Part shown: positions 24,866-64,000 of the stretch, in pieces | Layout: each line of letters begins with the position of its first letter | Position numbering within the stretch: position 1 is the stretch's first letter | DNA from: Bacteroidota bacterium | GTDB taxonomy: Bacteria > Bacteroidota > Ignavibacteria > UBA10030 > SZUA-254 | DNA length: 64,000 nt | Direction of reading: 5' to 3' | NCBI GenBank assembly: GCA_036522515.1 | Contig: DATDFQ010000015.1 | Location: 193,073-257,072 of the forward strand | Notes under the pieces: generated by a model | What the model saw: only the letters and a program-made list of their open reading frames with translations | Databases searched by the model: none | Told to the model about the DNA's origin: nothing | Made by a program: the position numbers and the translations under genes

Positions 24866-24933
24866 TATATGCCCCTTCCAATGAATTGATGTTACAAGAC
24901 TCCCGTTATCTTGTTTCGCGGTCATTTCCTCCT

Positions 24934-35621: not shown

Positions 35622-35783
35622 TTTGGCTTCCTTTTGAATGTCCGCGTTAACTTCTGTTTCAATCATGCGTCAATTTAATCCAGAACGCCACCTCCTTCAA
35701 TGCGTCAGTGATAACTGTCACCCGGTCAGAAATGGGGTACACGGGGCGATATGGAAAGGCACGAATTGAATTATTAAAATAAT

Positions 35784-39425: not shown

Positions 39426-39463
39426 TTTGGTAGCCCTTTTTGTTTGATTAAAATTACTACCCA

Positions 39464-39492
39464 AATATGCCCTCAAAACGAGGCTGATACAA
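39464..39492 (-). promoter_or_regulatory. Predicted promoter with CCTC-N5-GAGG element
   Basis: Minus-strand TTGTAT (39487-39492), 17 bases, CATATT (39464-39469). The spacer contains CCTC-N5-GAGG (39471-39483), matching the palindrome in the promoter at 25444. Leader about 32 nt. Confidence 0.45.
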
Positions 39493-40652: not shown

Positions 40653-40765
40653 GCGGCGCGGAGCGCCGCGGTATGCGTTCCCACGCAGAGCGTGGGAACG
40701 AGGAGTCGGCTTGGTAGGCGCAGGCTTTAGCCTGCGTTTGTTCGGTCTGGCAGGTCGCGCCTACC
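40653..40765. repeat. Mixed palindrome cluster (GTTCCCACGC hairpin plus family A copy 4)
   Basis: Three hairpins: GCGGCGC/GCGCCGC (40653-40669); an 11-base perfect stem CGTTCCCACGC/GCGTGGGAACG with loop AGA (40676-40700); and family A hairpin CGCAGGC-TTTA-GCCTGCG (40719-40736) with a half element GGTCGCGCCTACC at the end. The TAG stop of the adjacent TPR gene lies in the GGTAGG tail of the repeat. Confidence 0.85.
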
Positions 40766-42560: not shown

Positions 42561-42577
42561 CCTACCGGTTCCGGGCG

Positions 42578-44512: not shown

Positions 44513-44592
44513 GTGCCTCAGTGACCGCTCGCGCCATCTTTTTTTCTCGTCATCCCGGCGCGTTTTGGGACGGGATCTTGATTGGGTTTCAT

Positions 44593-47675: not shown

Positions 47676-49493
47676 CTACTTCATGAGGATCAGTTTTTTC
47701 ACCTGCGAAAATTCCCTCGCCGTCGATCGAGACGCGGCGCGAATCCTGTAGAGGTAGACCCCGGAGGGGAGCGGCGTTCCGAAGCCGTCCGAGCCCTTCC
47801 ACTCCACCGATTGATATCCGGCGGCAACCGTCCCGTGCAGAAGGACCGCGACCGTCTGCCCGAGCGTGTTGGTGATCGTCAGATCGACCATGCTCTCCTC
47901 CGGCAGGTCGAACGAGATCTTCGTCGCAGGGTTGAACGGGTTGGGATAGTTCTGGCCCAGGGCATATTCGGTGGGGAGATTCCGGACGGAACCCGGCGCA
48001 CGAACCTCGCCCGGCGCCGGAGGCGGGAGCTCGTCGGTTCTCAGGCGCGAGACGTCGGTGAGCATCGCCCTCGGAGTGTTCGGATCGGCCGTCGACCGGA
48101 GGGTGACGGTGCAATTCTGTCCGACCCGCATCCAGTAGCCCTGTCCGGGTTTGAGTGTGGTCGCCGCAAAATACGATCCGTTGTAGCCGAAGACAGACTG
48201 GATGGATCCCGGCGGATTCTGGACGAGGCTGCCCACGGCGATTTCCCTGCTGATCGCCCCGATGAGATTCCAGGGCGGAGTCAGGTTGATGGTCAGGCTG
48301 TCGACGGAAGTACCGGCGACATTGACGGTCTGCGCCCCCGAGAACTTCTCCCAGTATCCCCGCCCGAGAGACAGGCTGTCCGCGAGAAGGTAACCCGAGC
48401 CGGCGACATAATAAAAGGCCGGGGTTACCGCCGTCGGGAAGAGGAGGCTCTTGGTGCCGTTGACGCCCGCGAGCGGCACCGAGACCAGGTTCCACAAATC
48501 GTTGACCGCGAGCCCGCGCCTGAGAAGGAGCGGCCCGAAATTATTCCTGATGACATTCCCTCCTCCGCCCGATATCCATGCCCCCTCTCCGGGACGGACA
48601 GTGATGTCGTCGAGCTCCAGGAACGCGCCGGACGATTCCGGCGCCCAGACGCTGCCGCCGTTCGTGGTCTTCAGGAGCGTGCCCGCCGAGCCGACCACCC
48701 AGCCGGTCGTCGGGCTGAGGAATCCCAGACCGAGGAGCGCCACGCTCGCGTTGCTCGATTGGGGGATCCAGGAGACCCCGCCGTCGGTCGATTTCTTGAT
48801 GACTCCCACCGCCGCCGTATCGAACCCGTACCCCACGTACCAGCCGGTTTGATGGTCTACAAAGCGGACGGCATCGATATCCTCGTTCCCGTCAACACCG
48901 TTGGTTTGAGGCGTCCAGGTGGCGCCGCCGTCGGTCGTCTTCACGATTGCACCGGGAAGAAGTCCGCTCGCCCAGCCGGTCGACGCATCGACGAAGGAAA
49001 CGGATTCCAGGCACGAGATCACGCCGGATTCCTGGGTGTTCCAGCTCTCCCCCGCGTCGGTCGTATTCAAAATCAGGCCGTTGAACCCGACCGCCCAGCC
49101 CAGGGTCGGGGAGACGAACTGAACGGAGGAAAGGATCCTGCCGGTGTCTTTGATCGCCCAGTTCGCGCCGCCGTCGGTCGTTTTCAATATGATGCCTCCG
49201 CCGCATCCGTCGCATCCCCCCGTGATCCACCCGCGAAGCGAATCGATGAAGAAGACGCTTTCGAGCGGCTCGCTCGTTCCGCTGATCTGAGGAGCCCAGT
49301 TAATCCCGGCGGACGTCGATTTCAGGATCGTCCCCTCGTCGCCGACCGCCCAGCCGGTGGTCGCGTTCACGAATGTAATGCCGTGGAGCGTTTCCGTCGA
49401 GCCGGGAAACTGGGTTTCCCAGGTGTTCACCTGGCCGACCATCGTAGAGAGGGTCATCAAAGAACTCATCCAGAGTATGATAGCTGTCCGCAT
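47676..49493 (-). CDS. T9SS cargo: YCF48-like propeller with paired WNL/GYW domain
   Basis: A 605-residue protein with signal peptide (cleavage near S-T-M-V-G-Q). Residues ~22-320 are YCF48-type blades (G-W-A-V-G-x-x-G-x-I-L-K-T-T). A module with two W-N-L-(V/I)...G-x-G-Y-W motifs (W-N-L-V-S-V-P-L...G-R-G-Y-W and W-N-L-I-G-A-I...G-Q-G-Y-W) spans ~340-490; this pair is common in secreted proteins of the superphylum and has no known function. A Pro-rich linker and a type-A sorting domain (G-Q-N-Y-P-N-P-F-N-P to K-K-L-I-L-M-K) end it. It is the most divergent of the five propeller proteins. The region just upstream is AT-rich, but no clear promoter was found. Confidence 0.88.
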   Translation of the reverse strand: MRTAIILWMSSLMTLSTMVGQVNTWETQFPGSTETLHGITFVNATTGWAVGDEGTILKSTSAGINWAPQISGTSEPLESVFFIDSLRGWITGGCDGCGGGIILKTTDGGANWAIKDTGRILSSVQFVSPTLGWAVGFNGLILNTTDAGESWNTQESGVISCLESVSFVDASTGWASGLLPGAIVKTTDGGATWTPQTNGVDGNEDIDAVRFVDHQTGWYVGYGFDTAAVGVIKKSTDGGVSWIPQSSNASVALLGLGFLSPTTGWVVGSAGTLLKTTNGGSVWAPESSGAFLELDDITVRPGEGAWISGGGGNVIRNNFGPLLLRRGLAVNDLWNLVSVPLAGVNGTKSLLFPTAVTPAFYYVAGSGYLLADSLSLGRGYWEKFSGAQTVNVAGTSVDSLTINLTPPWNLIGAISREIAVGSLVQNPPGSIQSVFGYNGSYFAATTLKPGQGYWMRVGQNCTVTLRSTADPNTPRAMLTDVSRLRTDELPPPAPGEVRAPGSVRNLPTEYALGQNYPNPFNPATKISFDLPEESMVDLTITNTLGQTVAVLLHGTVAAGYQSVEWKGSDGFGTPLPSGVYLYRIRAASRSTAREFSQVKKLILMK

Positions 49494-49567: not shown

Positions 49568-49601
49568 TAAAAATGGGGTGAGCCGGACAGACTCACCCCA
49601 T
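49568..49601 (-). terminator. Rho-independent terminator of adhesin paralogue 1
   Basis: Ten-base stem ATGGGGTGAG/CTCACCCCAT (49573-49582, 49592-49601), followed on the minus strand by a T-run. Confidence 0.85.
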
Positions 49602-49624: not shown

Positions 49625-52600
49625 TTACTTCATCAGGACCATCTTCATCACGTCGTGGAACTCTTTCCCGCTCGTCGTGGAGGTCGCCTGCAGCCGGTAC
49701 ATGTAGATTCCCGACGGCAGCGCATCGCCCGCATGATTCGCCGTGTTCCACTCGACCGACTGGTAACCCGCTTCCATCATTCCATCCACCAGGGTGGCGA
49801 CTTCCTGCCCGAGGATATTGAACACGCTCAACCTGACGGTGCTGGCTTCCGGCAGATCGAACTTGATCTGCGTGGTCGGGTTGAACGGATTCGGATAGTT
49901 CGAATGGAGAGCGTACTCAACCGGTGTTCCGGCGCTCATCTCCGAAGCGTCACGGAGGCCCGAAGTTCCAACCACCGGACCCGCGGCACAACCCGGAACC
50001 GCCGAGATGCTGTCGGCGGATAGACCGTCGAACGAGCCGCCGACCTTCGAGATGAAGTTGTACTGGCACGTCGGAGGAGCACCGCTGTAGGTGCCGCCCT
50101 GGATCGATTTGACGTCGTACTTCACCGAGATGATGTAGCTCGCACCCGGCGTCGCGCCCGTGATGCAGACGCGTCCCTGACCCGGCGTGATTTCGCTTCC
50201 CTGACGCAGCTTCGCGCAGCCGTCGGTATAGAGGTAGATCTGGTTGCCCTGCTGAATCCGGGCGTACTTGAAGCTGCTGCATGCCTTCGTCTGTACGATA
50301 TCGACGCAGAAGCTGGCGCTCGGAGCCGTCACCCTCGTCCAGTAGAAGAAGACGCCCGGTGTCGCCGTGCCGACAACCCCGCTCGCCGGTTTGTAGCAGA
50401 GGGCGTTGAGCCGCTGCGCTGTGCCGCTGGTGAAGTCGGAGCAGGTCGTCTGTGTCGGGAAGATATGCCCGCCGCAGGTCGTCTTCAACGTCAGCGTGCC
50501 CGAGCCGGAGCCCGTGCAACCCTTCGTATCCGTCACCGTGACGCTGTAGCTTCCGGCAGAGCTGACCCTGATCGTCGAGGTCGTCGCGCCGGTGCTCCAG
50601 GAGAAGGTCGAAGCGCCGGTGCCGCCCGAGGGCGTCGCCGTCATCGTCGCAGAATCGCCCGGACAGATCAGCGCGTCGTTAACAGATACCGTCGGATTCG
50701 GATTGACCGTCAGAGTGCCCGAGCCGGAGCCCGTGCAGCCCTTGCTGTCCGTTACGGTCACGCTGTAGGTTCCAGCAGTGCTGCCGCAAAGCGAGGACGT
50801 TGTCGCGCCTGTACTCCACACAAATGTCACAGCCCCAGTTCCACCAGATGGTGTGGCTGTAAGGCAGACAGGGAGAATGCTTGCGCAGGCTTCAACGCTA
50901 TTGACCGAAACGGTCGGATTCGGATCGACCGTGAGCGTGCCCGAGCCTGAGCCTGTGCAGCCCTTGGTGTCGGTCACCGTCACGCTGTACGTGCCCGCAG
51001 TGCTCGTGCTGATCGTCGAAGTCGTCGCGCCGGTGCTCCACGCGAAGGTCTTGGCGCCGGTCCCGCCCGCCGGAGTGGCGGTCAGGGTGGCAGGCAGAGC
51101 GCTTGCGCAGGCTTCGACATTCGCAACAGTCACAGTCGGATTCGGATCGACGGAGAGCGTACCCGAGCCGGAGCCCGTGCAGCCCTTCGTGTCCGTCACC
51201 GTTACGCTATACGTTCCGGCAGTGCTCGTGCTGATGGTCGAGGTCGTCGCACCCGTGCTCCAAGCAAAGGTGACTGCGCCTGTCCCACCGGAAGGCGTCG
51301 CGGTTAACGTCGCGGGAAGCGTGCTTGCGCAGACTTCCACGTTACCGACCGAAACTGTCGGATTCGGATCGACCGTGAGAGTGCCCTCGCCCGAGCCCGT
51401 GCAGCCCTTCGTATCGGTTACCGTCACGCTATAGGTGCCGGCAGTGCTCGTGCTGATCGTGGAAGTCGTCGCGCCCGTGCTCCACGCGAACGTCTTTGCG
51501 CCCGTGCCGCCGGCCGGCGTGGCCGTCAGCGTGGCAGGAAGCGTGCTTGCGCAGACTTCAACGGCTGCGATGGAGACGGTCGGATTCGGATCGACCGTGA
51601 GCGTGCCCGAGCCGGAGCCCGTGCAGCCCTTCGTATCCGTCACCGTTACGCTGTAGGTGCCCGCAGTGCTCGTGCTGATGGTCGAGGTCGTCGCGCCTGT
51701 GCTCCATGCAAAGGTCGCGGCGCCTGTTCCGCCGGCCGGTGTTGCGGTCAGTGTCGCTGGCAGCGTGCTGGCGCAAACTTCCACGTTGGCAATCGAGACA
51801 GTCGGATTCGGATCGACCGTCAGAGTGCCTTCGCCGGAGCCCGTGCAGCCCTTCGTGTCCGTCACCGTCACGCTATACGTGCCGGCAGTGCTCGTGCTGA
51901 TGGTCGAAGTCGTCGCGCCCGTGCTCCATGCGAAGCTCTTCGCGCCGGTGCCGCCGGCCGGTGTGGCCGTCAGCGTTGCAGGAAGCGTGCTTGCGCAGAC
52001 TTCAACGGCTGCGATGGAGACGGTCGGATTGGGATTGACCGTCAGGGTGCCCTCGCCGGAACCCGTGCAACCCTTTGTATCCGTTACGGTTACGCTATAG
52101 GTGCCCGCGGTGCTCGTGCTGATCGTCGAGGTCGTCGCTCCCGTGCTCCAGGCGAACGACTTCGCGCCCGTGCCGCCGGCCGGTGTGGCCGTAAGCGTGG
52201 CCGGAAGCGTGCTTGCGCAAACTTCGACGTTTGCAATCGAAACCGTCGGATTCGGATCGACGGTCAACGTGCCCTCGCCGGAGCCCGTGCAGCCCTTCGT
52301 ATCGGTTACAGTCACGCTGTAGGTGCCGGCTGTGCTCGTGCTGATCGTCGAGGTCGTCGCGCCGGTGCTCCAGGCGAACGACTCCGCGCCTGTGCCGCCG
52401 GCCGGTGTGGCCGTCAGCGTCGCAGGCAGCGTGCTTGCGCAGACTTCGACGTTTGCAATCGAGACCGTCGGGTTCGGATTCACCGTGAGCGTGCCCGTGC
52501 CGGAGCCCGTGCAGCCCTTGGTGTCGGTGGCCGTCACGCTATACGTCCCCGCCGTGTTGACGCTGATCGTCGAGGTCGTGGCGCCCGTGCTCCACGAATA

Positions 52601-55600
52601 GGAATATGCAGGAGTTCCGCCGCTGACGGTTGCCGTCAGTGTGGCGGAGACGCCGCTGCAGACTTCTGTGCTGTTCACTGAAACATTGAGATTCGGATTG
52701 ACTGTCAGCGTGCCTGTGCCGGAGCCGGTGCAGCCCTTCGTGTCGGTCACCGTGACGCTGTAGGTGCCGGCGGTGCTCGTGCTGATCGTCGATGTGGTCG
52801 CGCCTGTGCTCCATGCGAAGCTCTTTGCGCCGGTTCCGCCGGACGGCGTCGCCGTCAGCGTGGTCGGCAGCGCACTCGCGCAGACTTCGACGTTTGCGAT
52901 CGAGACGGTCGGATTCGGATCGACCGTGAGTGTGCCTGAGCCTGAGCCCGTGCAGCCCTTCGTATCAGTCACGGTCACGCTGTACGTTCCGGCAGTGCTC
53001 GTGCTGATGGTCGAGGTGGTCGCGCCTGTGCTCCATGCGAACGTCTTTGCGCCGGTTCCGCCCGAGGGCGTCGCCGTCAGCGTCGCAGGAAGCGTGCTTG
53101 CGCAGACTTCCACGTTTGCGATCGAGACCGTCGGGTTCGGATCAACCGTGAGAGTTCCCTCGCCGGAGCCCGTGCAGCCCTTCGTATCCGTGACCGTCAC
53201 GCTATAGGTGCCGGCAGTGCTCGTGCTGATCGTCGAGGTCGTCGCGCCTGTGCTCCATGCAAAGGTCGCGGCGCCCGTCCCGCCGGCCGGCGTCGCCGTC
53301 AGTGTCGCGGGCAACGTGCTTGCGCAGACTTCGACGTTTGCGATTGAGACGGTCGGATTCGGGTTGACCGTCAGCGTGCCTTCGCCGGAGCCCGTGCAAC
53401 CCTTTGTGTCCGTTACGGTTACGCTATAGGTCCCCGCAGTGCTCGTGCTGATTGTCGAGGTCGTCGCGCCTGTGCTCCATGCGAACGTCTTCGCGCCCGT
53501 GCCACCCGAAGGTGTCGCGGTCAGCGTCGCCGGAAGCCCGCTGAAGCAGATTTCCACGTTGGCGACCGAGACCGTCGGATTCGGATCGACAGTCAGAGTG
53601 CCGGAGCCGGAGCCCGTGCAGCCTTTCGTATCTGTCACGGTCACGCTGTACGTACCAGCCGTGCTCGTGCTGATGGTGGAAGTCGTCGCGCCTGTGCTCC
53701 AGGAGAACGTCTTCGCGCCGGTGCCGCCTGCCGGTGTCGCGGTCAGTGTCGCAGGCAATGTGCTTGCGCAGACTTCGACGTTGGCGATCGAGACGGTCGG
53801 ATTGGGATCGACCGTGAGTGTGCCTGAGCCTGAGCCCGTGCAGCCCTTGGTATCCGTGACCGTTACGCTATAGGTTCCGGCGGTGCTCGTGCTGATCGTC
53901 GAGGTCGTCGCACCCGTGCTCCATGCAAAGGTCGCGGCGCCTGTCCCTCCGGCCGGTGTGGCCGTGAGTGTCGCAGGTAATGTGCTCGCGCAGACTTCGA
54001 CGTTTGCGATCGAGACCGTCGGGTTCGGATCGACCGTTAAGGTCCCAGAGCCTGAGCCCGTGCAGCCCTTCGTGTCCGTTACCGTCACGCTATAGGTGCC
54101 CGCAATGCTCGTGCTGATGGTGGAGGTCGTCGCGCCAGTGCTCCAGGCAAATGTCTTGGCGCCCGTTCCGCCGGCCGGCGTCGCAGTCAAGGTCGCCGGA
54201 AGCGCGCTCGCGCACTGTTCGACGTCTCCAACCGAGACCGTCGGATTCGGATCGACCGTCAGGGCCCCCGAGCCTGAGCCGGTGCAACCCTTCGTGTCCG
54301 TTACCGTGACGCTATACGTTCCCGCCGTGCTCGTGCTGATCGTCGAGGTCGTCGCACCCGTGCTCCATGCAAAGGTCGCGGCGCCCGTTCCGCCCGCCGG
54401 TGTCGCCGTGAGTGTCGCAGGCAATGTGCTTGCGCAAACTTCGACGTTCGCGATCGAGACAGTCGGATTGGGATTGACCGTCAGAGTGCCTGAGCCTGTG
54501 CCCGAGCATCCCTTCGAATCGGTCACCGTCACGCTGTAGGTGCCGGCCGTGCTCGTGCTGATGGTCGAGGTCGTCGCGCCGGTGCTCCAGGAGTACGTGA
54601 AATTCGGAGTGCCGCCGTTCGGCGTCGCGGTCAGAGTCGCAGGCAACGTGCTCGCGCAGACTTCCGGATTCGTGACATCGACAGTGAGTCCCGGATTTAC
54701 CGTTACGGTCCCGGAACCCGATCCCGTGCAGCCCTTCGTATCGGTCACGGTCACGCTATAGGTGCCCGCGGTGCTCGTGCTGATGGTGGAGGTCGTGGCG
54801 CCTGTGCTCCATGAAAATGTCTTCGCGCCTGTGCCACCCGAGGGTGTCGCCGTCAGTAAAGCGGCCCCGCCCTGGCAGGTGGCTGAATTATTCACCGAAA
54901 CCGTCGGGTTCGGATCGACCGTAAGCGTGCCCGAGCCCGAGCCCGTGCAGCCCTTGGTATCCGTTACCGTTACCGAGTAGGTTCCCGCGGTGCTCGTGCT
55001 GATGGTCGAGGTCGTCGCGCCGGTGCTCCATGCGAACGTCTTCGCGCCGGTTCCGCCCGCAGGCGTCGCGGTCAATGTTGCAGGAAGCGTGCTCGCGCAA
55101 ACTTCGACGGCTGCGATCGAGACGGTCGGGTTCGGATTGACGGTCAAAGTGCCGGAGCCTGAGCCCGTGCAGCCCTTGGTGTCCGTCACGGTCACGCTGT
55201 AGGTCCCGGCCGTGCCGGTGCTGATCGTGGAGGTCGTCGCGCCGGTGCTCCATGAGAATGTCTTGGAGCCGGTTCCGCCTGAGGGCGTCGCAGTGAGTGT
55301 TGCGGAAGTCCCTGCGCACGCTTCGGGGCTATTCACCGAAACTGTGGGATTGGGATTTACGTTGAACACCACCGTGTCGAGCGCCTGGCCGCAGCCCTGG
55401 TCGCTCGTCACCGTCAAAAGAAGAACCGCTGTTCCCGTTCCCGTATCGGTGATCGTCGTCGTGAGCGAAGTCGGGTCGGCAATTGCAACCCGTCCACTCA
55501 ATACAGACCACAACGGCGTGCCGTTCTGCGCGCTCCCCGCGAGCGTGAATGTCGTGGGATCGGTCGTCTGGCAAACAGACTGATCGGGTCCCGCGTTCGC

Positions 55601-56683
55601 TCTCGGCGGAGGAATGACTGCAAACCCGCCCAATGCAAAATCCATCAAAGAGCTTGTGAATGAAGCTGAAGAGCGCGTCTGGAAGAGCGCCGTCGCCAGC
55701 GGGTTGCAGGGATCGATCGGCAACAGGTTTAATCCCGTGAGATCGAGGCCAAATTCGACGAACTGAAGAGCGATCGTCGTGTCGGTGAGATTGCCCTGCG
55801 GCGAGACGCCCTGTCCCGGCGCAACCGCGGGAATGTTGGCGACGTTCGTCGTCACAAATCCCTTGCCCGCGGTGAGTGAATCGGCGATCAGTACCCACGA
55901 TCCGCCGCTGGTGGTGCTCCACTCGCGGACGCTGACCACAGGCCGCGTTCCGCCGTTGGTGTAATCGACGATCAACAGAATATCGCCGCCAACGAGGTGG
56001 CCGAGCGTGTCGACGACGCCTGCGATGCGGCCGCCGATCGCTCCCGTGCCCGATGCGCGTCCGGTGATCTTATTGCTTCCCGGAACGCGCCGGTCGACGA
56101 ACATGCCCTTCTGGTCCAGCTCAAGTCCTGCAAAGCTCACACCGTTGGTGGCGCGTGTCTCAAAGCCCGCGACCACCCAACGGTGGCCCGTCGCGCCGTC
56201 CACCTGCGTGCTGATGTAGCAGTTGGTGATGTCGTTCTTCTGAGGGCTTCCGCCGCCGAAGGTCGAGTCGACCACGCCCCAGTGGGTGCTCGCCGAATCG
56301 ATCGCCTGATCGTTCTTTTCGCCGCCGGTGTACTGCGTCCCGTCGTTCCCCGTGCCCCAGTTCGGATCGCGGAACCAGAGGCTGTTCGTGGCGTTGTTTA
56401 ATCCGAGAACAGACACTCCTCCGGACTGAAGCAGCAGTGCGCTTCCGGTCGGTCCCTGCGACCAGTCGTTGCCGGAGAGGAACGTTGCGCCCGTGAAGGT
56501 GACGCCCGAAAAGAAGTTCGCGTCGATCTCGACGTTCGCCGCGCTTCCGGGAGTACCGGCAGGAGGCGTCTGCGCGAATGCTCCGCCTGTGAAGACGAGC
56601 GTGCAGACGGCCATCGCGCAACAAAGCATGCGCAAGGAAACGAGTCCCTTGAGCCGCGCGAAAAAAGTAGAAGGTGAGTTCAT
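49625..56683 (-). CDS. Giant SprB-like repeat adhesin 1, T9SS-sorted
   Basis: A protein of 2352 residues from the ATG at 56683 (AAGGGGC upstream). Signal peptide of about 37 residues ending G-G-A-F-A-Q. A unique N-terminal domain (~45-400) begins N-V-E-I-D-A-N-F-F-S-G and continues with D-Q-A-I-D-S-A-S-T-H-W-G-V-V-D; I do not recognise it. A short PKD-like segment (G-P-D-Q-S-V-C ... D-T-G-T-G-T-A-V-L-L) leads into 22 tandem units of 73-74 residues with F-A-W-S-T-G-A-T-T-S and G-T-Y-S-V-T-V-T-D-T-K-G-C, the pattern of SprB repeats. A Cys-rich cap (G-H-I-F-P-T-Q-T-T-C...C-Q-Y-N-F-I) and a type-A sorting domain follow. SprB is the mobile gliding adhesin of Flavobacterium; an adhesive role is likely, gliding is not shown. 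Confidence 0.9.
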   Translation of the reverse strand: MNSPSTFFARLKGLVSLRMLCCAMAVCTLVFTGGAFAQTPPAGTPGSAANVEIDANFFSGVTFTGATFLSGNDWSQGPTGSALLLQSGGVSVLGLNNATNSLWFRDPNWGTGNDGTQYTGGEKNDQAIDSASTHWGVVDSTFGGGSPQKNDITNCYISTQVDGATGHRWVVAGFETRATNGVSFAGLELDQKGMFVDRRVPGSNKITGRASGTGAIGGRIAGVVDTLGHLVGGDILLIVDYTNGGTRPVVSVREWSTTSGGSWVLIADSLTAGKGFVTTNVANIPAVAPGQGVSPQGNLTDTTIALQFVEFGLDLTGLNLLPIDPCNPLATALFQTRSSASFTSSLMDFALGGFAVIPPPRANAGPDQSVCQTTDPTTFTLAGSAQNGTPLWSVLSGRVAIADPTSLTTTITDTGTGTAVLLLTVTSDQGCGQALDTVVFNVNPNPTVSVNSPEACAGTSATLTATPSGGTGSKTFSWSTGATTSTISTGTAGTYSVTVTDTKGCTGSGSGTLTVNPNPTVSIAAVEVCASTLPATLTATPAGGTGAKTFAWSTGATTSTISTSTAGTYSVTVTDTKGCTGSGSGTLTVDPNPTVSVNNSATCQGGAALLTATPSGGTGAKTFSWSTGATTSTISTSTAGTYSVTVTDTKGCTGSGSGTVTVNPGLTVDVTNPEVCASTLPATLTATPNGGTPNFTYSWSTGATTSTISTSTAGTYSVTVTDSKGCSGTGSGTLTVNPNPTVSIANVEVCASTLPATLTATPAGGTGAATFAWSTGATTSTISTSTAGTYSVTVTDTKGCTGSGSGALTVDPNPTVSVGDVEQCASALPATLTATPAGGTGAKTFAWSTGATTSTISTSIAGTYSVTVTDTKGCTGSGSGTLTVDPNPTVSIANVEVCASTLPATLTATPAGGTGAATFAWSTGATTSTISTSTAGTYSVTVTDTKGCTGSGSGTLTVDPNPTVSIANVEVCASTLPATLTATPAGGTGAKTFSWSTGATTSTISTSTAGTYSVTVTDTKGCTGSGSGTLTVDPNPTVSVANVEICFSGLPATLTATPSGGTGAKTFAWSTGATTSTISTSTAGTYSVTVTDTKGCTGSGEGTLTVNPNPTVSIANVEVCASTLPATLTATPAGGTGAATFAWSTGATTSTISTSTAGTYSVTVTDTKGCTGSGEGTLTVDPNPTVSIANVEVCASTLPATLTATPSGGTGAKTFAWSTGATTSTISTSTAGTYSVTVTDTKGCTGSGSGTLTVDPNPTVSIANVEVCASALPTTLTATPSGGTGAKSFAWSTGATTSTISTSTAGTYSVTVTDTKGCTGSGTGTLTVNPNLNVSVNSTEVCSGVSATLTATVSGGTPAYSYSWSTGATTSTISVNTAGTYSVTATDTKGCTGSGTGTLTVNPNPTVSIANVEVCASTLPATLTATPAGGTGAESFAWSTGATTSTISTSTAGTYSVTVTDTKGCTGSGEGTLTVDPNPTVSIANVEVCASTLPATLTATPAGGTGAKSFAWSTGATTSTISTSTAGTYSVTVTDTKGCTGSGEGTLTVNPNPTVSIAAVEVCASTLPATLTATPAGGTGAKSFAWSTGATTSTISTSTAGTYSVTVTDTKGCTGSGEGTLTVDPNPTVSIANVEVCASTLPATLTATPAGGTGAATFAWSTGATTSTISTSTAGTYSVTVTDTKGCTGSGSGTLTVDPNPTVSIAAVEVCASTLPATLTATPAGGTGAKTFAWSTGATTSTISTSTAGTYSVTVTDTKGCTGSGEGTLTVDPNPTVSVGNVEVCASTLPATLTATPSGGTGAVTFAWSTGATTSTISTSTAGTYSVTVTDTKGCTGSGSGTLSVDPNPTVTVANVEACASALPATLTATPAGGTGAKTFAWSTGATTSTISTSTAGTYSVTVTDTKGCTGSGSGTLTVDPNPTVSVNSVEACASILPVCLTATPSGGTGAVTFVWSTGATTSSLCGSTAGTYSVTVTDSKGCTGSGSGTLTVNPNPTVSVNDALICPGDSATMTATPSGGTGASTFSWSTGATTSTIRVSSAGSYSVTVTDTKGCTGSGSGTLTLKTTCGGHIFPTQTTCSDFTSGTAQRLNALCYKPASGVVGTATPGVFFYWTRVTAPSASFCVDIVQTKACSSFKYARIQQGNQIYLYTDGCAKLRQGSEITPGQGRVCITGATPGASYIISVKYDVKSIQGGTYSGAPPTCQYNFISKVGGSFDGLSADSISAVPGCAAGPVVGTSGLRDASEMSAGTPVEYALHSNYPNPFNPTTQIKFDLPEASTVRLSVFNILGQEVATLVDGMMEAGYQSVEWNTANHAGDALPSGIYMYRLQATSTTSGKEFHDVMKMVLMK
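50486..55357 (-). repeat. 22 tandem SprB-like coding repeats (about 222 bp)
   Basis: From the first N-P-N-P after the PKD-like segment to T-L-T-L-K is 4872 bases for 22 W-S-T-G-A-T-T-S units, i.e. 73-74 residues each with only four single-residue losses in all. Most units carry two cysteines (V-C-A-S and K-G-C). Unit 21 has two extra cysteines. Confidence 0.93.
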
Positions 56684-57093
56684 GTGACTATGCCCCTTTA
56701 GTGTTGTGATGATAAGAGAAAAGTGGAAACGAATTCGACCTGACTGAGCCCGGAAAAGAAACAAATCAAGATACAACTGTGCAGTGATTCAAATCAATAC
56801 TCCAAAAGGATGAAAGACGGATTAGAGGGTCGAGATCTCCCAATTGGGTAGAACAAGAACTCGAACTGAGATAGCGCGAAATCTTGCGGCGACTATCATG
56901 TCGCAAGGATTCTCCGGTGAACCGGAGGGTACGATGGCGAGATAGAGATCGAAAAATAATTGTCGCCGTCCCGCGATGGAAAAGAAATTTGGTGGTGAAA
57001 CTGCTTCCCGGTGGAAGACGCACCGGGTGAAACGCTCCCGGGCGTCACTAGAGGTGAAGTTTTTTTTGGTTGAGAAACGGACTTCCCTTTGGG
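56684..57093 (-). other. Long conserved 5' leader of adhesin 1
   Basis: About 410 bases between predicted transcript start and ATG. Minus-strand hairpins include CCCGGTG/CACCGGG with a 7-base loop and ACGC/GCGT around CCGGGA (near 57008-57047), and CTCCGGT/ACCGGAG with a two-base loop (56912-56927). Parts align with the leader of adhesin 2. No known riboswitch consensus was recognised. Confidence 0.5.
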
Positions 57094-57099
57094 TGAGTA

Positions 57100-57128
57100 A
57101 AGATAGAAAACGGGTGCCCAAAAGTCAA
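57100..57128 (-). promoter_or_regulatory. Predicted promoter of adhesin 1
   Basis: Minus-strand TTGACT (57123-57128), 17 bases, TATCTT (57100-57105). Boxes and spacing are identical to the promoter of adhesin 2 at 62823. Between here and the terminator at 57256 nothing else is seen. Confidence 0.75.
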
Positions 57129-57255
57129 GGGAGATGAGCCCGCATTACCCGATTTTTAATGTTCTCCGATACGCTTTACCTGTTTCTCCGCCGGCCGGGT
57201 TGACGGGGCCGGGAAACGGCGCCATCTTTCCATGCACTGACTGATCTTGGTTCAA

Positions 57256-57294
57256 TAAAAACAATGGGGTGGCCCCGGGAAGGGACCACCCCAT
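57256..57294 (-). terminator. Rho-independent terminator of adhesin 2
   Basis: Nine-base stem ATGGGGTGG/CCACCCCAT with inner CCC/GGG pairs, then TTGTTTTTAT on the minus strand. Nearly identical to the terminator at 62976. Confidence 0.88.
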
Positions 57295-57317
57295 CGCTCA
57301 GACTGATGACTTCCAGC

Positions 57318-60300
57318 TTACTTCATCAACACCATCTTCATTACCTCATGGAACTCCTTCCCGCTCGTCATGGAGGTCGCCTGCAGCCGGTACATGTAGA
57401 TTCCGGAAGGCAAGGCAACTCCTTCATGATTCGCAGTGTTCCATTCGACCGCCTGGTATCCCGCATCCATCGCCCCGTCCAGAAGCGTCGCGACTTCCTG
57501 GCCGAGTATGTTGAACACGCTCAGTCGGACAGTGCTCGCCTCGGGCAGATCGAACTTGATCTGCGTCGTGGGGTTGAACGGATTCGGATAGTTCGCATGG
57601 AGAGCGTACTGAGCCGGTACTGCAGCGCTCATCTCAGACGCGTCCCCAAATCCCGCTTTCGCCGGTGCGATCCCCGCCGAACATCCGGGCGTCGCCGAGA
57701 TGCTGTCGGCGGAGGGCGTGATCGGCGAACCGCCGATCGAGCTGATGAAGTTGTACTGGCAGGTCGGAGGCGCACCGCTGTAGGTGCTGCCCTGGATCGA
57801 CTTGACGTTGTACTTCACCGACACAATGTAATCCGCTCCCGGCGTCGCACCCGTGATGCAGACCCGCCCCTGACCGGGGCTCGGTTCCGTTCCCTGCCGC
57901 AGACTCTGGCAATCGGCGCTGTAGATGTAGATCTGGTTGCCCTGGTGAATCCGAAGGAACTTGAAGCTGCTGCACGCCTTCGTCTGTATGATGTCGACGC
58001 AGAAGCTCGCGCTCGGCGCCGTCACCTTTGTGAAGTAGAAGAAGACGCCCGGCGTCGCGGTGCCGACCGTGCCGCTCGAGGGTTGATAGCAGAGCGCGTT
58101 CAGGCGCTGGGCCGTGCCGCTCGTGAAGTCGCTGCAGGTCGTTTGCGTCGGGAAGATATGTCCGCCGCAACCGGTCTTCAGCGAGAGCGTGCCGGAGCCT
58201 GAGCCCGTGCAACCCTTGGTATCCGTCACCGTCACGCTATACGTGCCGGCGGTGCTGGTCCGGATCGTCGAGGTCGTCGCGCCCGTGCTCCATGCAAAGG
58301 TTGAAGCGCCCGTTCCGCCCGAAGGCGTCGCCGTCAACGTGGCGGAATCGCCGGGACAGACTGAGGCGTCATTCACGGAAACGGTCGGATTCGGATCGAC
58401 CGTCAGAGTGCCCGAGCCCGAGCCCGTGCAACCCTTTGTATCCGTCACGGTCACGCTGTAAGTCCCGGCTGTGCTCGTGCTGATCGTCGAGGTCGTCGCT
58501 CCCGTGCTCCATGCGAAGGTCGATGCCCCGGTTCCGCCCGACGGGGTCGCGGTCAATGTCGCGGGAAGCGTGCTTGCGCAGACTTCAGGGCTATTGACAG
58601 AGACCGTCGGATTCGGATCGACCGTCAGAGCGCCCGAGCCCGAGCCCGTGCAGCCCTTCGTATCGGTCACGGTCACACTGTAGCTTCCGGCCGTGCTCGT
58701 GCTGATCGTCGAGGTCGTCGCGCCGGTGCTCCATGAGAATGTCTTTGAGCCGGTCCCGCCCGCGGGCGTCGCCGTCAGGGTCGCCGGGAGAGCGCTTGCG
58801 CATGCTTCGACTGCTGCGACGGAAACAGTCGGATTCGGATCGACCGTCAGAGTGCCCGAGCCGGTGCCCGTGCATCCCTTCGAGTCGGTCACGGTCACGC
58901 TGTAGGTGCCCGCCGTGCTCGTGCTGATCGTCGAGGTCGTCGCGCCCGTGCTCCATGCAAAGGTCGCAGCGCCTGTCCCGCCCGAGGGCGTCGCAGTCAA
59001 TGTCGCGGGCAATGTGCTCGCGCACACTTCCGGGCTATTGACGGAGACCGTCGGGTTCGGATTGGAAGTCAGCGTGCCCGTGCCGGAGCCCGTGCAACCC
59101 TTCGTATCGGTCGCCGTTACGCTGTAGGTTCCAGCGGTGCTCGTGCTGATCGTCGAGGTCGTCGCGCCCGTGCTCCATGAGTAGGTGTATCCGGGCACAC
59201 CCCCGCTCACCGTTGCGGTGAGTGTCGCAGAGAATCCCGAGCAGGCCTCGGGACTATTGACCGAGACATTCAGATTCTCATCGATGGTCAATGTGCCCGT
59301 GCTTGAGCCCGTGCAACCCTTCGTATCGGTCACGGTCACACTGTAGGTGCCCGCGGTGCTCGTGCTGATCGTCGAGGTCGTCGCGCCGGTGCTCCACGCA
59401 AAGGTCTTGGCGCCGGTTCCGCCCGAGGGCGTGGCAGTCAAGGTAGCCGGGAGCGAGCTTGCGCACACCTCGGGGCTATTGACCGAGACCGTCGGGTTCG
59501 GATCGATCGTCAGCGTGCCCGTGCTTGAGCCCGTGCAACCCTTCGTATCGGTCACGGTCACACTGTAGGTGCCCGCGGTACTCGTGCTGATCGTTGAGGT
59601 CGTCGCGCCGGTACTCCACGCGAACGTCGCAGCGCCCGTTCCGCCCGAGGGCGTCGCAGTCAAGGTAGCCGGGAGCGTGCTTGCGCAGACCTCGGGGCTA
59701 TTGACAGAAACGGTCGGGTTCGGATTCACCGTCAACGTGCCTGTGCCTGAGCCGGTACAACCCTTCGTGTCAGTCGCCGTCACGCTGTACGTTCCCGCCG
59801 TGCTCGTGCTGATCGTCGAGGTCGTCGCGCCCGTGCTCCAGGAATAGGTGTAGGCCGGAGTTCCGCCGCTTACACTTGCGGTCAGGGTGGCCGAAGTCCC
59901 TGAACAGACTTCGGGGCTATTCACCAAAACGGTAAGGTTCGCGTTGATCGTGAGCGTACCCGAGCCTGAGCCCGTGCAACCCTTCGTATCGGTCACGGTC
60001 ACGCTGTAGGTTCCGGCCGTGCTCGTGCTGATCGTCGAGGTCGTCGCGCCCGTGCTCCATGCAAAGGTCTTTGCGCCCGTTCCGCCCGAGGGCGTCGCAG
60101 TCAGGGTCGCCGGGAGCGCGCTTGCGCAGACTTCCGGGCTGTTGACCGAAACCGTCGGGTTCGGATCGACAGTCAGGGTGCCGGAACCCGAGCCGGTGCA
60201 ACCCTTCGTATCGGTCACGGTCACGCTGTAGGTGCCCGCCGTGCTCGTGCTGATCGTTGAGGTCGTCGCGCCTGTGCTCCATGCGAACGTCGAAGCGCCT

Positions 60301-62603
60301 GTCCCGCCCGAGGGCGTAGCGGTCAGAGTCGCAGGCAGCGTGCTCGCGCAAACCTCCACGTTCGCAATCGAGACCGTCGGATTCGGATCCACGGTGAGCG
60401 TGCCCGAGCCTGAGCCCGTGCAACCCTTCGTGTCGGTCACGGTCACGCTGTAGGTGCCCGCCGTGCTCGTGCTGATCGTCGAGGTCGTCGCGCCTGTGCT
60501 CCATGCGAACGTCGAAGCGCCTGTCCCGCCCGAGGGTGTGGCAGTCAAGGTAGCCGGAAGAGTGCTCGCGCAGACTTCGGGGCTATTGACTGAGACTGTC
60601 GGGTTCGGATTCACCGTGAGCGTGCCCGTGCTCGAGCCTGTGCAGCCCTTCGTATCGGTTACCGTCACTGAGTAGGTTCCTGCCGTGCTCGTGCTGATCG
60701 TCGAGGTCGTCGCGCCCGTGCTCCATGCAAAGGTCTTTGCGCCCGTTCCGCCCGAGGGCGTCGCAGTGAGGGTCGCCGGCAGGGTGCTTGCGCAGACTTC
60801 CGGGCTATTGACCGAGACGGTCGGATTCGGATCGACTGTGAGGGCGCCTGAGCCCGAGCCCGTGCAACCCTTCGTGTCCGTTACCGTCACCGAGTAGGTT
60901 CCTGCCGTGCTCGTGCTGATCGTCGAGGTCGTCGCGCCTGTGCTCCACGCAAAGGTCGCGGCCCCCGTTCCGCCCGCTGGCGTCGCAGTCAGAGTCGCGG
61001 GCAACGTGCTCGCGCAAACTTCGACAGCAGCGATCGAGACTGTCGGGTTCGGATTGACCGTCAGGGTGCCTGTGCTTGAGCCCGTGCAACCCTTCGTGTC
61101 GGTCACGGTCACGCTATACGTGCCGGCCGTGCTCGTCGAGATCGAAGAGGTCGTCGCGCCTGTGCTCCATGAAAATGTCACGGCGCCCGTCCCGCCCGAA
61201 GGTGTGGCGGTCAGGGTCGCAGGCAGCGTGCTCGCGCAGACCTCGGGGCTATTGACCGAGACCGTCGGGTTCGGATTCACGTTAAACACGACCGTATCGA
61301 GCGCCGCGCCGCAGCCCTGGCCGCTCGTCACCGTCAGAAGAAGAACCGCTGTTCCGGTTCCCGTGTCCGTGATCGTCGTCGTGAGCGAAGTGGGATCCGT
61401 GATCGCAACCCGTCCGCTCAGAACCGACCATAACGGCGTGCCGTTTGTTGCGCTCCCTGCAAGCGTAAACGTCGTCACATCTCCCGCCGCGCAGACAGAC
61501 TGATCCGGTCCCGCATGCGCCTCCGGCGGGGGAATGACCGCAAACTTGCCAAGTGCAAAATCCATTAATGAACTTGTGAACGACGAAGAGGAACGCGTCT
61601 GGAACAGTGCCGTCGCCAACGGGTTGCAGGGATCGATCGGCAACAGGTTCAATCCCGTCAAATCGAGGCCGAACTCTATGAACTGGAGCGCAATCGTCGT
61701 ATCGGTCAGCGTTCCGTTCGGTGAGACGCCCTGGCCCGGCGCCACCGCCGGAATGTTTGCGAGGTTCGTCACGACAAATCCCTTGCCTGCGGTGAGAGAA
61801 TCCGCTATCAGTACCCATGATCCGCCGCTATTGGTGCTCCACTCGCGCACGCTGACTATTGGTCTGTTTCCGCCGCCGGTATAATCGACTATTAATAGAA
61901 TATCTCCACCAACCAGGTGGTTGTTGATATCCACAACGCCTGCGATGCGTCCGCCGACGGCTCCTGTGCCCGATGCCCGGCCTGTGATCTTGTTGCTCCC
62001 CGGCACCCGCCGGTCCACGAACATACCCTTCTGGTCGAGTTCAAGGCCTGCGAAACTGTTTCCGTTCACAGCCCGTGTCTCCATCCCGGCGATCACCCAC
62101 CGATGGCCGGTTGCTCCGTCGACCTGCGTGCTGATATAGCAGTTCGTGATGTCGTTCTTCTGCGGGCTTCCGCCTCCGAAGGTGGTATCGACCACGCCCC
62201 AGTGCGTGCTGGCGGAGTCGATCGCCTGATCATTCTTTTGTCCGCCCGTGTACTGTGTCGGATCGTTCTGTGTCGCCCAATCCTGGTCCCGGAACCACAG
62301 GCTGTTCGTCGCGTTGTTCAAGCCCAGGACGGAGTGTCCTCCGGATTGAAGCAACAGCGCGCTGCCGGTCGGTCCCTGCGACCAGTCGTTACCGGAAAGA
62401 AACGTCGCGCCGGTGAAGGTGATGCCGGAGAAGAAGTTCGCGTCGATCTCGACGTTGGCCGCGCTTCCCGGCGACCCGTTCGGCGGCGTCTGTGCCATTG
62501 CGCCGCCTGTCAATCCAAGCGCGCATACAAGCAGAGCGCTACAAAGCAGACGCAAGGAAACAAGTCCCTTGTGCTGCGGCGAAGTTGTAAGAAGTGCGTT
62601 CAT
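57318..62603 (-). CDS. Giant SprB-like repeat adhesin 2, T9SS-sorted
   Basis: A protein of 1761 residues from the ATG at 62603 (AAGGGGC upstream). It is collinear with adhesin 1: signal peptide ending G-G-A-M-A-Q, the same unrecognised N-terminal domain (N-V-E-I-D-A-N-F-F-S-G; differences are mostly conservative), PKD-like segment, 14 SprB-like units, Cys-rich cap and type-A sorting domain (H-A-N-Y-P-N-P-F-N-P to K-M-V-L-M-K). Its units more often have V-N-S-P-E-V-C where adhesin 1 has I-A-N-V-E-V-C, so arrays have been homogenised within genes. The repeat part is 39% Ser/Thr, a good substrate for O-glycosylation. Own promoter and terminator. Confidence 0.9.
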   Translation of the reverse strand: MNALLTTSPQHKGLVSLRLLCSALLVCALGLTGGAMAQTPPNGSPGSAANVEIDANFFSGITFTGATFLSGNDWSQGPTGSALLLQSGGHSVLGLNNATNSLWFRDQDWATQNDPTQYTGGQKNDQAIDSASTHWGVVDTTFGGGSPQKNDITNCYISTQVDGATGHRWVIAGMETRAVNGNSFAGLELDQKGMFVDRRVPGSNKITGRASGTGAVGGRIAGVVDINNHLVGGDILLIVDYTGGGNRPIVSVREWSTNSGGSWVLIADSLTAGKGFVVTNLANIPAVAPGQGVSPNGTLTDTTIALQFIEFGLDLTGLNLLPIDPCNPLATALFQTRSSSSFTSSLMDFALGKFAVIPPPEAHAGPDQSVCAAGDVTTFTLAGSATNGTPLWSVLSGRVAITDPTSLTTTITDTGTGTAVLLLTVTSGQGCGAALDTVVFNVNPNPTVSVNSPEVCASTLPATLTATPSGGTGAVTFSWSTGATTSSISTSTAGTYSVTVTDTKGCTGSSTGTLTVNPNPTVSIAAVEVCASTLPATLTATPAGGTGAATFAWSTGATTSTISTSTAGTYSVTVTDTKGCTGSGSGALTVDPNPTVSVNSPEVCASTLPATLTATPSGGTGAKTFAWSTGATTSTISTSTAGTYSVTVTDTKGCTGSSTGTLTVNPNPTVSVNSPEVCASTLPATLTATPSGGTGASTFAWSTGATTSTISTSTAGTYSVTVTDTKGCTGSGSGTLTVDPNPTVSIANVEVCASTLPATLTATPSGGTGASTFAWSTGATTSTISTSTAGTYSVTVTDTKGCTGSGSGTLTVDPNPTVSVNSPEVCASALPATLTATPSGGTGAKTFAWSTGATTSTISTSTAGTYSVTVTDTKGCTGSGSGTLTINANLTVLVNSPEVCSGTSATLTASVSGGTPAYTYSWSTGATTSTISTSTAGTYSVTATDTKGCTGSGTGTLTVNPNPTVSVNSPEVCASTLPATLTATPSGGTGAATFAWSTGATTSTISTSTAGTYSVTVTDTKGCTGSSTGTLTIDPNPTVSVNSPEVCASSLPATLTATPSGGTGAKTFAWSTGATTSTISTSTAGTYSVTVTDTKGCTGSSTGTLTIDENLNVSVNSPEACSGFSATLTATVSGGVPGYTYSWSTGATTSTISTSTAGTYSVTATDTKGCTGSGTGTLTSNPNPTVSVNSPEVCASTLPATLTATPSGGTGAATFAWSTGATTSTISTSTAGTYSVTVTDSKGCTGTGSGTLTVDPNPTVSVAAVEACASALPATLTATPAGGTGSKTFSWSTGATTSTISTSTAGSYSVTVTDTKGCTGSGSGALTVDPNPTVSVNSPEVCASTLPATLTATPSGGTGASTFAWSTGATTSTISTSTAGTYSVTVTDTKGCTGSGSGTLTVDPNPTVSVNDASVCPGDSATLTATPSGGTGASTFAWSTGATTSTIRTSTAGTYSVTVTDTKGCTGSGSGTLSLKTGCGGHIFPTQTTCSDFTSGTAQRLNALCYQPSSGTVGTATPGVFFYFTKVTAPSASFCVDIIQTKACSSFKFLRIHQGNQIYIYSADCQSLRQGTEPSPGQGRVCITGATPGADYIVSVKYNVKSIQGSTYSGAPPTCQYNFISSIGGSPITPSADSISATPGCSAGIAPAKAGFGDASEMSAAVPAQYALHANYPNPFNPTTQIKFDLPEASTVRLSVFNILGQEVATLLDGAMDAGYQAVEWNTANHEGVALPSGIYMYRLQATSMTSGKEFHEVMKMVLMK
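58179..61277 (-). repeat. 14 tandem SprB-like coding repeats (about 222 bp)
   Basis: 3099 bases for 14 units, three residues short of 14 x 74. Two units are of a variant type with S-G-G-T-P-A-Y-T-Y-S-W or S-G-G-V-P-G-Y-T-Y-S-W, the form closest to the classical SprB consensus; similar variants occur in adhesin 1. Confidence 0.93.
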
Positions 62604-62816
62604 GAATTGTGCCCCTTTATGAAATGGGATGAATGAAAGGATACCGGTGGCCCGCTTTGTCCCATGCCGGCTTGTGGATAGAGAGTGAAATGATTGTTGC
62701 CTCGCCATGAAAAGAAATTTTCTATGGAGACTGTTCCCGACGGAAAACGCCCCGGAGGAATTCTCTTGAGCGTTACGGGAGGAAAATTTTTGAGAGTGAA
62801 ACGGACCTTCGTTGGA
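62604..62816 (-). other. 5' leader of adhesin 2
   Basis: About 213 bases, half the length of the leader of adhesin 1. Shared blocks on the minus strand include AAATTTCTTTTC and a G/C-rich segment ending GGGAA-CAGT (GGGAAGCAGT in adhesin 1), so the leaders are homologous but one has lost or gained about 200 bases. Confidence 0.5.
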
Positions 62817-62822
62817 TGTTTC

Positions 62823-62851
62823 AAGATAAAAAAGTGGGCTCCAAAAGTCAA
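62823..62851 (-). promoter_or_regulatory. Predicted promoter of adhesin 2
   Basis: Minus-strand TTGACT (62846-62851), 17 bases, TATCTT (62823-62828). Spacer shares TTTGG and CCC with that of adhesin 1. The region 62852-62975 shows nothing further. Confidence 0.75.
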
Positions 62852-62975
62852 GAAAATAGAGTCCGGATCAACACTTTTAACAATTTCCATCGGCACGTTT
62901 TACCCGATTTCCCGAGCGTCTTGCACCGAAGACGAGACGGTCGTTTCTTCGAGACTGACTCCACCGCAAAGTTCA

Positions 62976-63017
62976 ATAAAAACAATGGGGTGGCCCCGGG
63001 AAGGGTCCACCCCATTG
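62976..63017 (-). terminator. Rho-independent terminator of adhesin 3
   Basis: Eleven-base stem CAATGGGGTGG/CCACCCCATTG, T-run on the minus strand. Flanks match those at 57256 over more than 60 bases, continuing into the sorting-signal coding region. Confidence 0.88.
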
Positions 63018-63038
63018 CTGAGACTTATTACTTCCAGC

Positions 63039-64000
63039 TTACTTCATCAACACCATCTTCATCACGTCGTGGAACTCCTTCCCGCTCGTCATGGAGGTGG
63101 CCTGCAGCCGGTACATGTAGATCCCGGAAGGCAGGGCCGCACCCTCAGGATTCGCAGTGCTCCAATCGACCGACTGGTATCCCGCATCCATCACGCCATC
63201 CACGAGCGTTGCGACTTCCTGGCCGAGGATGTTGAACACGCTCAGACGGACGCTGCTCGCTTCGGGCAGATCGAATTTGATCTGCGTCGTGGGATTGAAC
63301 GGATTCGGATAGTTCGTGTGGAGCGCGTACTGAGCCGGAGTTGCGAGGCTCAATTCGGACGCTCCCTTGAACTCCGTCTTGCCGAGGGCGGAAAGCCCGA
63401 CGCAATTCGGCGCCGCATTGATGCTGTCGGCGGTGGTCTGAATCGGCGTGCCGGCGACCGAAGTGATGAAGTTGTACTGGCAGGTCGGAGGCGCACCGCT
63501 GTAGGTTCCGCCCTGGATCGACTTGACACTATACTTCACCGAGATGATGTAGTGGTTGCCCGGTGTCGCGTTGGTGATGCAGACACGTCCCTGGCCGGGT
63601 GAAGGTTCGGTGCCCTGCGTCAGACTCTGGCAGGCGTCGGAGTAGATGTAGATCTGGTTGCCGTTCTGAATCCGGTTCAGCTTGAACGTGCTGCAAGCCT
63701 TGGTCTGTGTCACGTCGACGCAGAAGCTCGCGCTCGGCGCGGTGATCTGCGCGAAGTAGAAGAACACTCCGGGGGTTGCGGTGCCGACCGTTCCGTTTGC
63801 CGGCTTGTAGCAAAGCGACGGGAGACGTGTGGCCGTTCCGCTCGCGAACTCGCTGCAGGTGGTCTGAGTCGGGAATATGTGCCCGCCGCAATCGGTCTTC
63901 AGCGTTATCGTTCCGGATCCGGAGCCTGTGCATCCCTTGGTATCGGTCACGGTCACGCTGTAGGTACCGGCAGTGCTCGTCCTGATCGTGGAGGCCGTCG
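63039..64000 (-). CDS. SprB-like repeat adhesin 3, C-terminal part (runs off the window)
   Basis: The frame is open to the end of the window, so the gene is partial with its start beyond 64000. Visible, in order from the right: the end of one SprB-like unit (S-T-I-R-T-S-T-A-G-T-Y-S-V-T, as in the last unit of adhesin 2), the Cys-rich cap (G-H-I-F-P-T-Q-T-T-C-S-E-F) and a type-A sorting domain (H-T-N-Y-P-N-P-F-N-P to K-M-V-L-M-K). It is clearly a third paralogue of the same series. The cap has diverged most between cap and sorting signal (N-C-V-G-L-S-A-L-G-K). Number of repeats and presence of the N-terminal domain cannot be seen. Confidence 0.92.
   Translation of the reverse strand, partial: TASTIRTSTAGTYSVTVTDTKGCTGSGSGTITLKTDCGGHIFPTQTTCSEFASGTATRLPSLCYKPANGTVGTATPGVFFYFAQITAPSASFCVDVTQTKACSTFKLNRIQNGNQIYIYSDACQSLTQGTEPSPGQGRVCITNATPGNHYIISVKYSVKSIQGGTYSGAPPTCQYNFITSVAGTPIQTTADSINAAPNCVGLSALGKTEFKGASELSLATPAQYALHTNYPNPFNPTTQIKFDLPEASSVRLSVFNILGQEVATLVDGVMDAGYQSVDWSTANPEGAALPSGIYMYRLQATSMTSGKEFHDVMKMVLMK

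Follow-up and report, generated by a model that had tools for sequence, protein, structure and literature searches.

A row of eight paralogous genes in the genome of an uncultured Ignavibacteria bacterium probably forms a lineage-specific tandem family encoding T9SS-exported surface rods. By computation, we established the domain order and repeat numbers of these proteins, a repeat fold shared with GhpA, the presence of SprA in the genome, a mosaic ancestry of the genes and a DNA element specific to the cluster. From these features we infer that the proteins are anchored on the surface and behave as rods in the cell, and that the head mediates adhesion or cell-cell contact. Each protein would begin with a Sec signal peptide and a head, continue as a stiff stalk made of 2-22 Ig domains of the SprB type, and finish with a cap and a tail of type A. 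The type A sorting domain would lead to C-terminal anchoring on the outer membrane, and the length of the stalk would set the distance of the head from the cell. The array would have doubled as a joint at which paralogues exchanged heads and tails, and every gene would be its own transcription unit.

T9SS surface proteins with Ig stalks are already known; this eight-gene variant is new. The cluster illustrates how the Ignavibacteria, a T9SS lineage that has received little study, may make a ladder of rods from one repeat, in which the array would be both a spacer and a joint for the swapping of ends. The arrays also allow protein repeats kept by selection to be distinguished from unstable DNA repeats, which are often confused, and the cluster-specific DNA element makes regulation of the family testable.

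Genes of the window

The window, the whole stretch of 64,000 nucleotides that was analysed, corresponds to C15:193073-257072 in a genome of 3.5 Mb (64 contigs, completeness 99.9%). It holds two complete genes, p1 and p2, and the 3' end of a third, p3, all on the minus strand with ends at 49625, 57318 and 63039, in agreement with a preliminary description of the region as three tandem SprB-repeat units. Gene p1 (49625..56683, ATG at 56683) was delimited as an ORF and annotated with Pfam and NCBIfam. It encodes, in order, a signal peptide, MNSPSTFFARLKGLVSLRMLCCAMAVCTLVFTGGAFA (signal peptides were judged by eye), a head (55358..56539) made up of an N-terminal domain of ~320 aa and a PKD/Ig-like domain, an array of 22 SprB-type units of 73-74 aa (50483..55357), a type I cap (49931..50482) and a T9SS type A sorting domain (49628..49930; TIGR04183, E 8e-21). 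Gene p2 (57318..62603) encodes a head with 90% aa identity to that of p1 (61275..62459), an array of 14 SprB-type units (58176..61274), a type I cap (57624..58175) and a type A sorting domain (57321..57623). The last unit, type I cap and sorting domain of p3 lie within the window (63039..64000), and the gene runs on to C15:260376. Pfam matches of the proteins to POM152, Imm61 and K319L-PKD were discounted as cross-hits between Ig-type folds.

The repeat counts of 22 and 14 in the preliminary description held when the units were cut out, and Tandem Repeats Finder (TRF) scores the p1 and p2 arrays at 4751 and 3370, far above chance. For the third gene, "at least 1" repeat was correct as far as it went; read beyond position 64000, the complete p3 (C15:256111-260376) has 9 repeats and the same head as p1 and p2. 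The cap and sorting domain are indeed common to all three genes, and the N-terminal domain, previously assigned to two of them, is present in p3 as well (95% aa identity to p1). An intrinsic-terminator-like hairpin follows each gene, at 49569..49601 with a T run (p1), 57257..57294 (p2) and 62978..63015 (p3), all on the minus strand, and those of p2 and p3 are the nearly identical pair noticed before.

Paralogues beyond the window

Extension past position 64000, proposed earlier as a way to count paralogues, added five genes to the three of the window, eight in all. The fourth, p4 (5 repeats), reaches the end of C15, and a genome search located r1 on C21 (2 repeats) and q1, q2 and q3 on C30 (17, 14 and 8 repeats). 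Complete paralogues have about 1,400-2,350 residues.

C15, C21 and C30 each end within the family. C15 and C21 end in the same 141 bp, and the final 141 bp of C30 recur, reverse-complemented, as the first 141 bp of C21. Where they meet a repeat, de Bruijn assemblers leave contig ends that overlap by exactly the largest k-mer, and a usual MEGAHIT list of k values goes up to 141 (PMC10914622). Only one linear walk uses each end once: it leads from C30 through the node to C21 reversed, and through the node again to C15 reversed, and gives the order q1 q2 q3 r1 p4 p3 p2 p1 in one orientation over roughly 43 kb. The only other graph solution, in which C21 and the node form a circle of their own, is implausible. 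On the basis of the contig-end overlaps, a row of eight tandem genes is thus probable. The missing node must represent a part of the head that two paralogues have in identical form; comparison with p1 suggests ~450 bp between the overlaps and ~730 bp in total. Beyond the node, the head DNA of p4 and r1 differs by 16%. An identical segment beside so diverged a flank is what recent gene conversion would leave, so that the ~0.7-kb identical head segment of r1 and p4 is a probable product of that process. Along the inferred row, the repeat numbers (17, 14, 8, 2, 5, 9, 14, 22) drop and then climb, a pattern that was noticed post hoc and that ~0.5% of random orders show.

The fact that C15, C21 and C30 break off inside the family could also point to an assembly artefact, in which arrays and paralogues are misjoined copies of a single gene. 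We regard this as extremely improbable, given that the heads of the paralogues are 13-29% diverged in DNA, that the reading frames are open throughout, and that exact repeats in the window genes are all shorter than 141 bp. Since such repeats are shorter than the k-mer, a short-read graph can resolve the arrays, and long reads are not needed to make the counts of 22 and 14 credible.

Export, predicted anchoring and the question of gliding

The type A sorting domain (TIGR04183) scores 74, 58 and 51 bits in p1-p3 (cut-off 23), which bears out the T9SS sorting domain proposed earlier for the window genes, and the tails of p4, q1-q3 and r1 are within a genome-wide list of 142 type A tails. For a genome of 3.5 Mb, this amounts to a large set of cargo proteins. 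The genome has the T9SS translocon gene SprA (SprA_N, 176.7 bits; cut-off 27), and the signal peptide together with the TIGR04183 tail places the proteins among T9SS type A cargo. Type A cargo of Porphyromonas is linked through its C-terminus to anionic LPS (PMC9143113). By analogy, the cluster proteins would be cleaved by PorU and anchored to the surface at the C-terminus, and such anchoring would put the head outermost.

The genes had previously been called SprB-like adhesins. The repeats justify this name, as the SprB repeat family PF13573 scores above its cut-off of 28 bits in p1-p3 (29.1, 53.6 and 35.1 bits), and together with SprA they could suggest SprB-type gliding adhesins moved on the surface by a gliding motor. 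Several other features do not fit the name. The tail is of type A, and TIGR04131, the type B sorting domain, has no match in p1-p3 at E 0.1. A genome search for TIGR04131, made without a positive control for that family, also gave no match, and the protein-level result alone was used as evidence. No PorP/SprF gene lies beside the cluster, the only match in the genome being sub-threshold and on C24, and a genome search for GldJ (TIGR03524) found nothing. Tail type, gene neighbourhood and the GldJ search thus speak against counting the cluster proteins as SprB gliding adhesins proper, and a role in gliding is very unlikely.

Repeats alike in protein and diverged in DNA

To compare the repeats, 91 units, mostly of 73-74 residues, were cut out. 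Mean protein identity is 85% in p1 and p2, 83% in q1, and 74-78% in p3, p4, q2 and q3. The preliminary description had taken the arrays to be long, near-identical DNA that allows recombination within and between genes. This is not so for the present arrays: the median nucleotide identity within a gene is 0.79 (p1) and 0.81 (p2), that is, ~20% divergence, the top pair reaches 0.92, about half of the synonymous sites have changed, and the longest exact repeat within a gene is 59 bp in p1 and 86 bp in p2. Between repeats, the median pS is 0.52 and the median pN 0.12; units 7 and 17 of p1 (p1_07 and p1_17) encode an identical protein and differ at 45% of synonymous sites. From this pattern, the protein sequence of the repeats is held alike by purifying selection. 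No sign was seen of selection for synonymous divergence that would block recombination: between q1 and q2, the first and fourth units have pS 0.38 and 0.24, against 0.40 for the heads.

A contingency locus, in which arrays vary in length at a high rate within populations and the eight copies are a by-product, would account for repeat numbers that differ in nearly all genes (2 to 22 across the paralogues, a gradation already noticed in the preliminary description), and for the tendency of units to have their closest relative within their own gene (36 of 91 units, where 13.8 would be expected). On the other hand, a best pair at 92% identity and exact repeats of at most 86 bp are too little for frequent slippage, adjacent units are no closer in sequence than far-apart ones, and units of identical protein differ at nearly half of their synonymous sites. 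Such a locus is therefore unlikely. For the family of rods that we favour, the DNA divergence and the excess of closest units within the same gene suggest that the arrays are old and partly homogenised within genes; such divergence also speaks against both assembly artefacts and recent expansion.

For scale, the paralogue heads have pS 0.40-0.63, and SprA has pS 0.67 against the same-genus relative (G001), whose SprA sequence is that of the Ignavibacteria MAG VBOC01 (isolate IN_1; 72-73% identity to the SprA studied here); this match places the organism in the class Ignavibacteria. The head is missing from this same-genus genome (79% complete). As the pS of the heads lies below that of SprA and the relative lacks the head, most of the amplification may have taken place after the split from this relative, with the caveat that synonymous sites are near saturation.

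Heads, caps and the exchange of ends

The head has no Pfam family and no sequence match in the PDB, and a scan of the genome collection returned no relative. An AlphaFold2 model built from the two window heads only has pLDDT 28.8. The same head occurs in two proteins of other Bacteroidota, L047 of G128 (E 4e-58) and L048 of G430 (E 3e-25). Like the cluster proteins, these combine the head with Ig-like domains and a C-terminal sorting-like tail of T9SS type; unlike them, they carry other Ig-like repeats, and no SprB array was seen. Binding appears the likeliest role of the head. The type I cap found nothing among PDB sequences and has no evident sequence relation to the type II cap; the latter is distantly related to the head (E 6e-11 to 4e-8).

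The head tree pairs q1 with q2 (100/99) and p4 with r1 (100/100) as sisters. q2 carries the type II cap, as does q3. The head tree rejects a single clade of cap II genes (p-AU 4e-5) and a single clade of cap I genes (p-AU 9e-6). Since the two caps have no evident relation, this conflict requires at least one exchange between head and tail. The arrays retain traces of both partners: units 1-5 of q1 and q2 match in register (0.87, 0.78, 0.87, 0.90 and 0.86) before identity falls to 0.70 at unit 6, and units 10, 12 and 14 of q2 pair in register with units 4, 6 and 8 of q3. Simple unequal crossing-over is not favoured as the origin of q2, because a crossing-over duplication would leave a gene with a q3 head and a q1 tail between its parents, whereas a q1 head with a q3 tail is seen. 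The earlier proposal that whole transcription units were duplicated and then changed in repeat number thus captures the tandem duplication and misses the exchange of heads and caps (p-AU 4e-5); past recombination between genes, which it also envisaged, is supported by the head phylogeny set against cap type.

Control regions

The 14-bp sequence AATCGGGTAAARCG, or a variant with 1-2 changes, is found in seven of the eight upstream regions and is missing from the remaining one. On the minus strand of the window it takes the forms AATCGGGTAATGCG 5' of p1 (57141..57154) and AATCGGGTAAAACG 5' of p2 (62896..62909). With at most one mismatch, AATCGGGTAAARCG has 8 sites in 3.5 Mb, of which 7 lie in the cluster and 6 of these upstream of its genes; the others are one in the 3' region of q3, which is probably there by chance, and one elsewhere, at C43. 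The reversed pattern, used as a control, has 0 sites in the genome.

The promoter boxes described before as shared by two genes, the sigma-70-like TTGACT-N17-TATCTT of p1 (57100..57128, minus strand) and p2 (62823..62851, minus strand), belong to a wider pattern: five of the seven element-bearing regions have TTGAC-N17-TANNNT downstream of the element. The element starts exactly 26 bp before TTGAC in four of these five (p1, p3, q3 and the one before p4), and 58 bp before it in p2. Leaders extend over roughly 200-420 nt from the predicted start sites and are otherwise alignable only in part, with q1 and q2 as the strongest pair (83%). An Rfam search of the window and the cluster found three tRNAs only, none of them in the cluster, and no match in the leaders, which indicates that these long leaders hold no known riboswitch.

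An element common to seven of eight genes suggests that the cluster is probably under one regulator. One further hypothesis is that the genes encode co-regulated modular rods with reshuffled ends and lengths, so that a single cell could hold out heads of one or several kinds at a graded series of heights, under a regulator dedicated to the 14-bp element. We put this forward tentatively and consider it rather unlikely.

Other surface-protein genes

Further surface proteins are encoded in the window and elsewhere in the genome. Two T9SS cargo proteins of the window (28692-35666 and 21494-24937) have FN3 arrays with periods of 300 and 297 bp after YCF48-like repeats, and further YCF48-like proteins are encoded at 47676-49493 and 37521-39476; the FN3 arrays and YCF48-like proteins mark the region as rich in surface proteins. 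The minus strand also encodes three successive TPR proteins at 40761-46692, of which one has a mannosyltransferase-like domain (PMT_2). Before q1, three related genes for membrane-anchored, pilin-like proteins, which start MTGRAIIFIVVG, are found at G000:C30:222-8472 (L069), two of them on the plus strand and the third on the minus strand.

A second pair of SprB-array genes, in the same orientation and with ~22 and at least 5 units, lies at G000:C38:27944-43707 (L013). Its head differs from that of the cluster, its tail is different and longer, and the second of the two genes runs off the end of the contig. A third type of SprB-array gene with yet another head, at G000:C57:65944-73001 (L070), is cut inside the array by the contig end. 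A single giant gene joining C57 and C38 was considered and rejected, as the two contigs have no shared end.

Comparison with known systems

A model of three consecutive repeats (pLDDT 95.6) was compared with the PDB by Foldseek, and its seven best matches are all fragments of GhpA (E 3e-15 to 1e-11). VIA-align Z scores are comparable for GhpA (9.3-10.1) and animal Ig proteins (up to 11.1). Most GhpA pieces superpose with a lower rmsd (2.9-5.5 A over about 207 residues), so that the domain-to-domain geometry is also close. An Ig domain of the titin type is ~4 nm long, and at ~4 nm per domain the stalks would form a series from about 8 to about 90 nm.

GhpA, the grappling hook protein A of Aureispira sp. 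CCB-QB1 (PDB 9flp, 9flw and others), is, like the proteins described here, secreted by the T9SS and has an Ig-domain stalk of the same fold. It is a single protein of 5898 residues, whereas the cluster encodes a series of shorter proteins with differing heads and caps. GhpA forms a heptamer (PMC11205867). As both are T9SS cargo and GhpA is the best Foldseek match with the lowest rmsd, one could envisage a device for predation or cell capture of the grappling-hook kind known from Aureispira. However, the likeness is limited to a common Ig-type repeat with a sequence E value of 0.0016 to GhpA, and the head has no counterpart among PDB sequences; we give this idea very little credence.

SprB of Flavobacterium johnsoniae shares with the cluster proteins the PF13573 repeat and is likewise a very long, repetitive T9SS cargo. 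It has a type B sorting domain, in contrast to the type A domain of the cluster proteins, and it is one protein of 669 kDa (PMC9143113) rather than eight tandem paralogues. Furthermore, the cluster has no SprF partner nearby and GldJ was not found in the genome.

Periscope proteins (SasG, Rib, Sgo_0707 and CdrA; PMC8201768) resemble the rods proposed here in having an N-terminal domain on a stalk built from similar folded domains, with C-terminal anchoring. They are defined by tandem domains of >50 residues with >=80% identity, an N-terminal functional domain and a surface anchor. In repeat identity p1, p2 and q1 are above this threshold, and p3, p4, q2 and q3 are below it; the high repeat-DNA identity that drives length change in Periscope proteins is not seen in p1 and p2. 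The length of Periscope proteins differs between strains and their DNA repeats are near-identical (PMC8201768), whereas in the cluster length differs between paralogues that share a genome, and the repeats have diverged in DNA.
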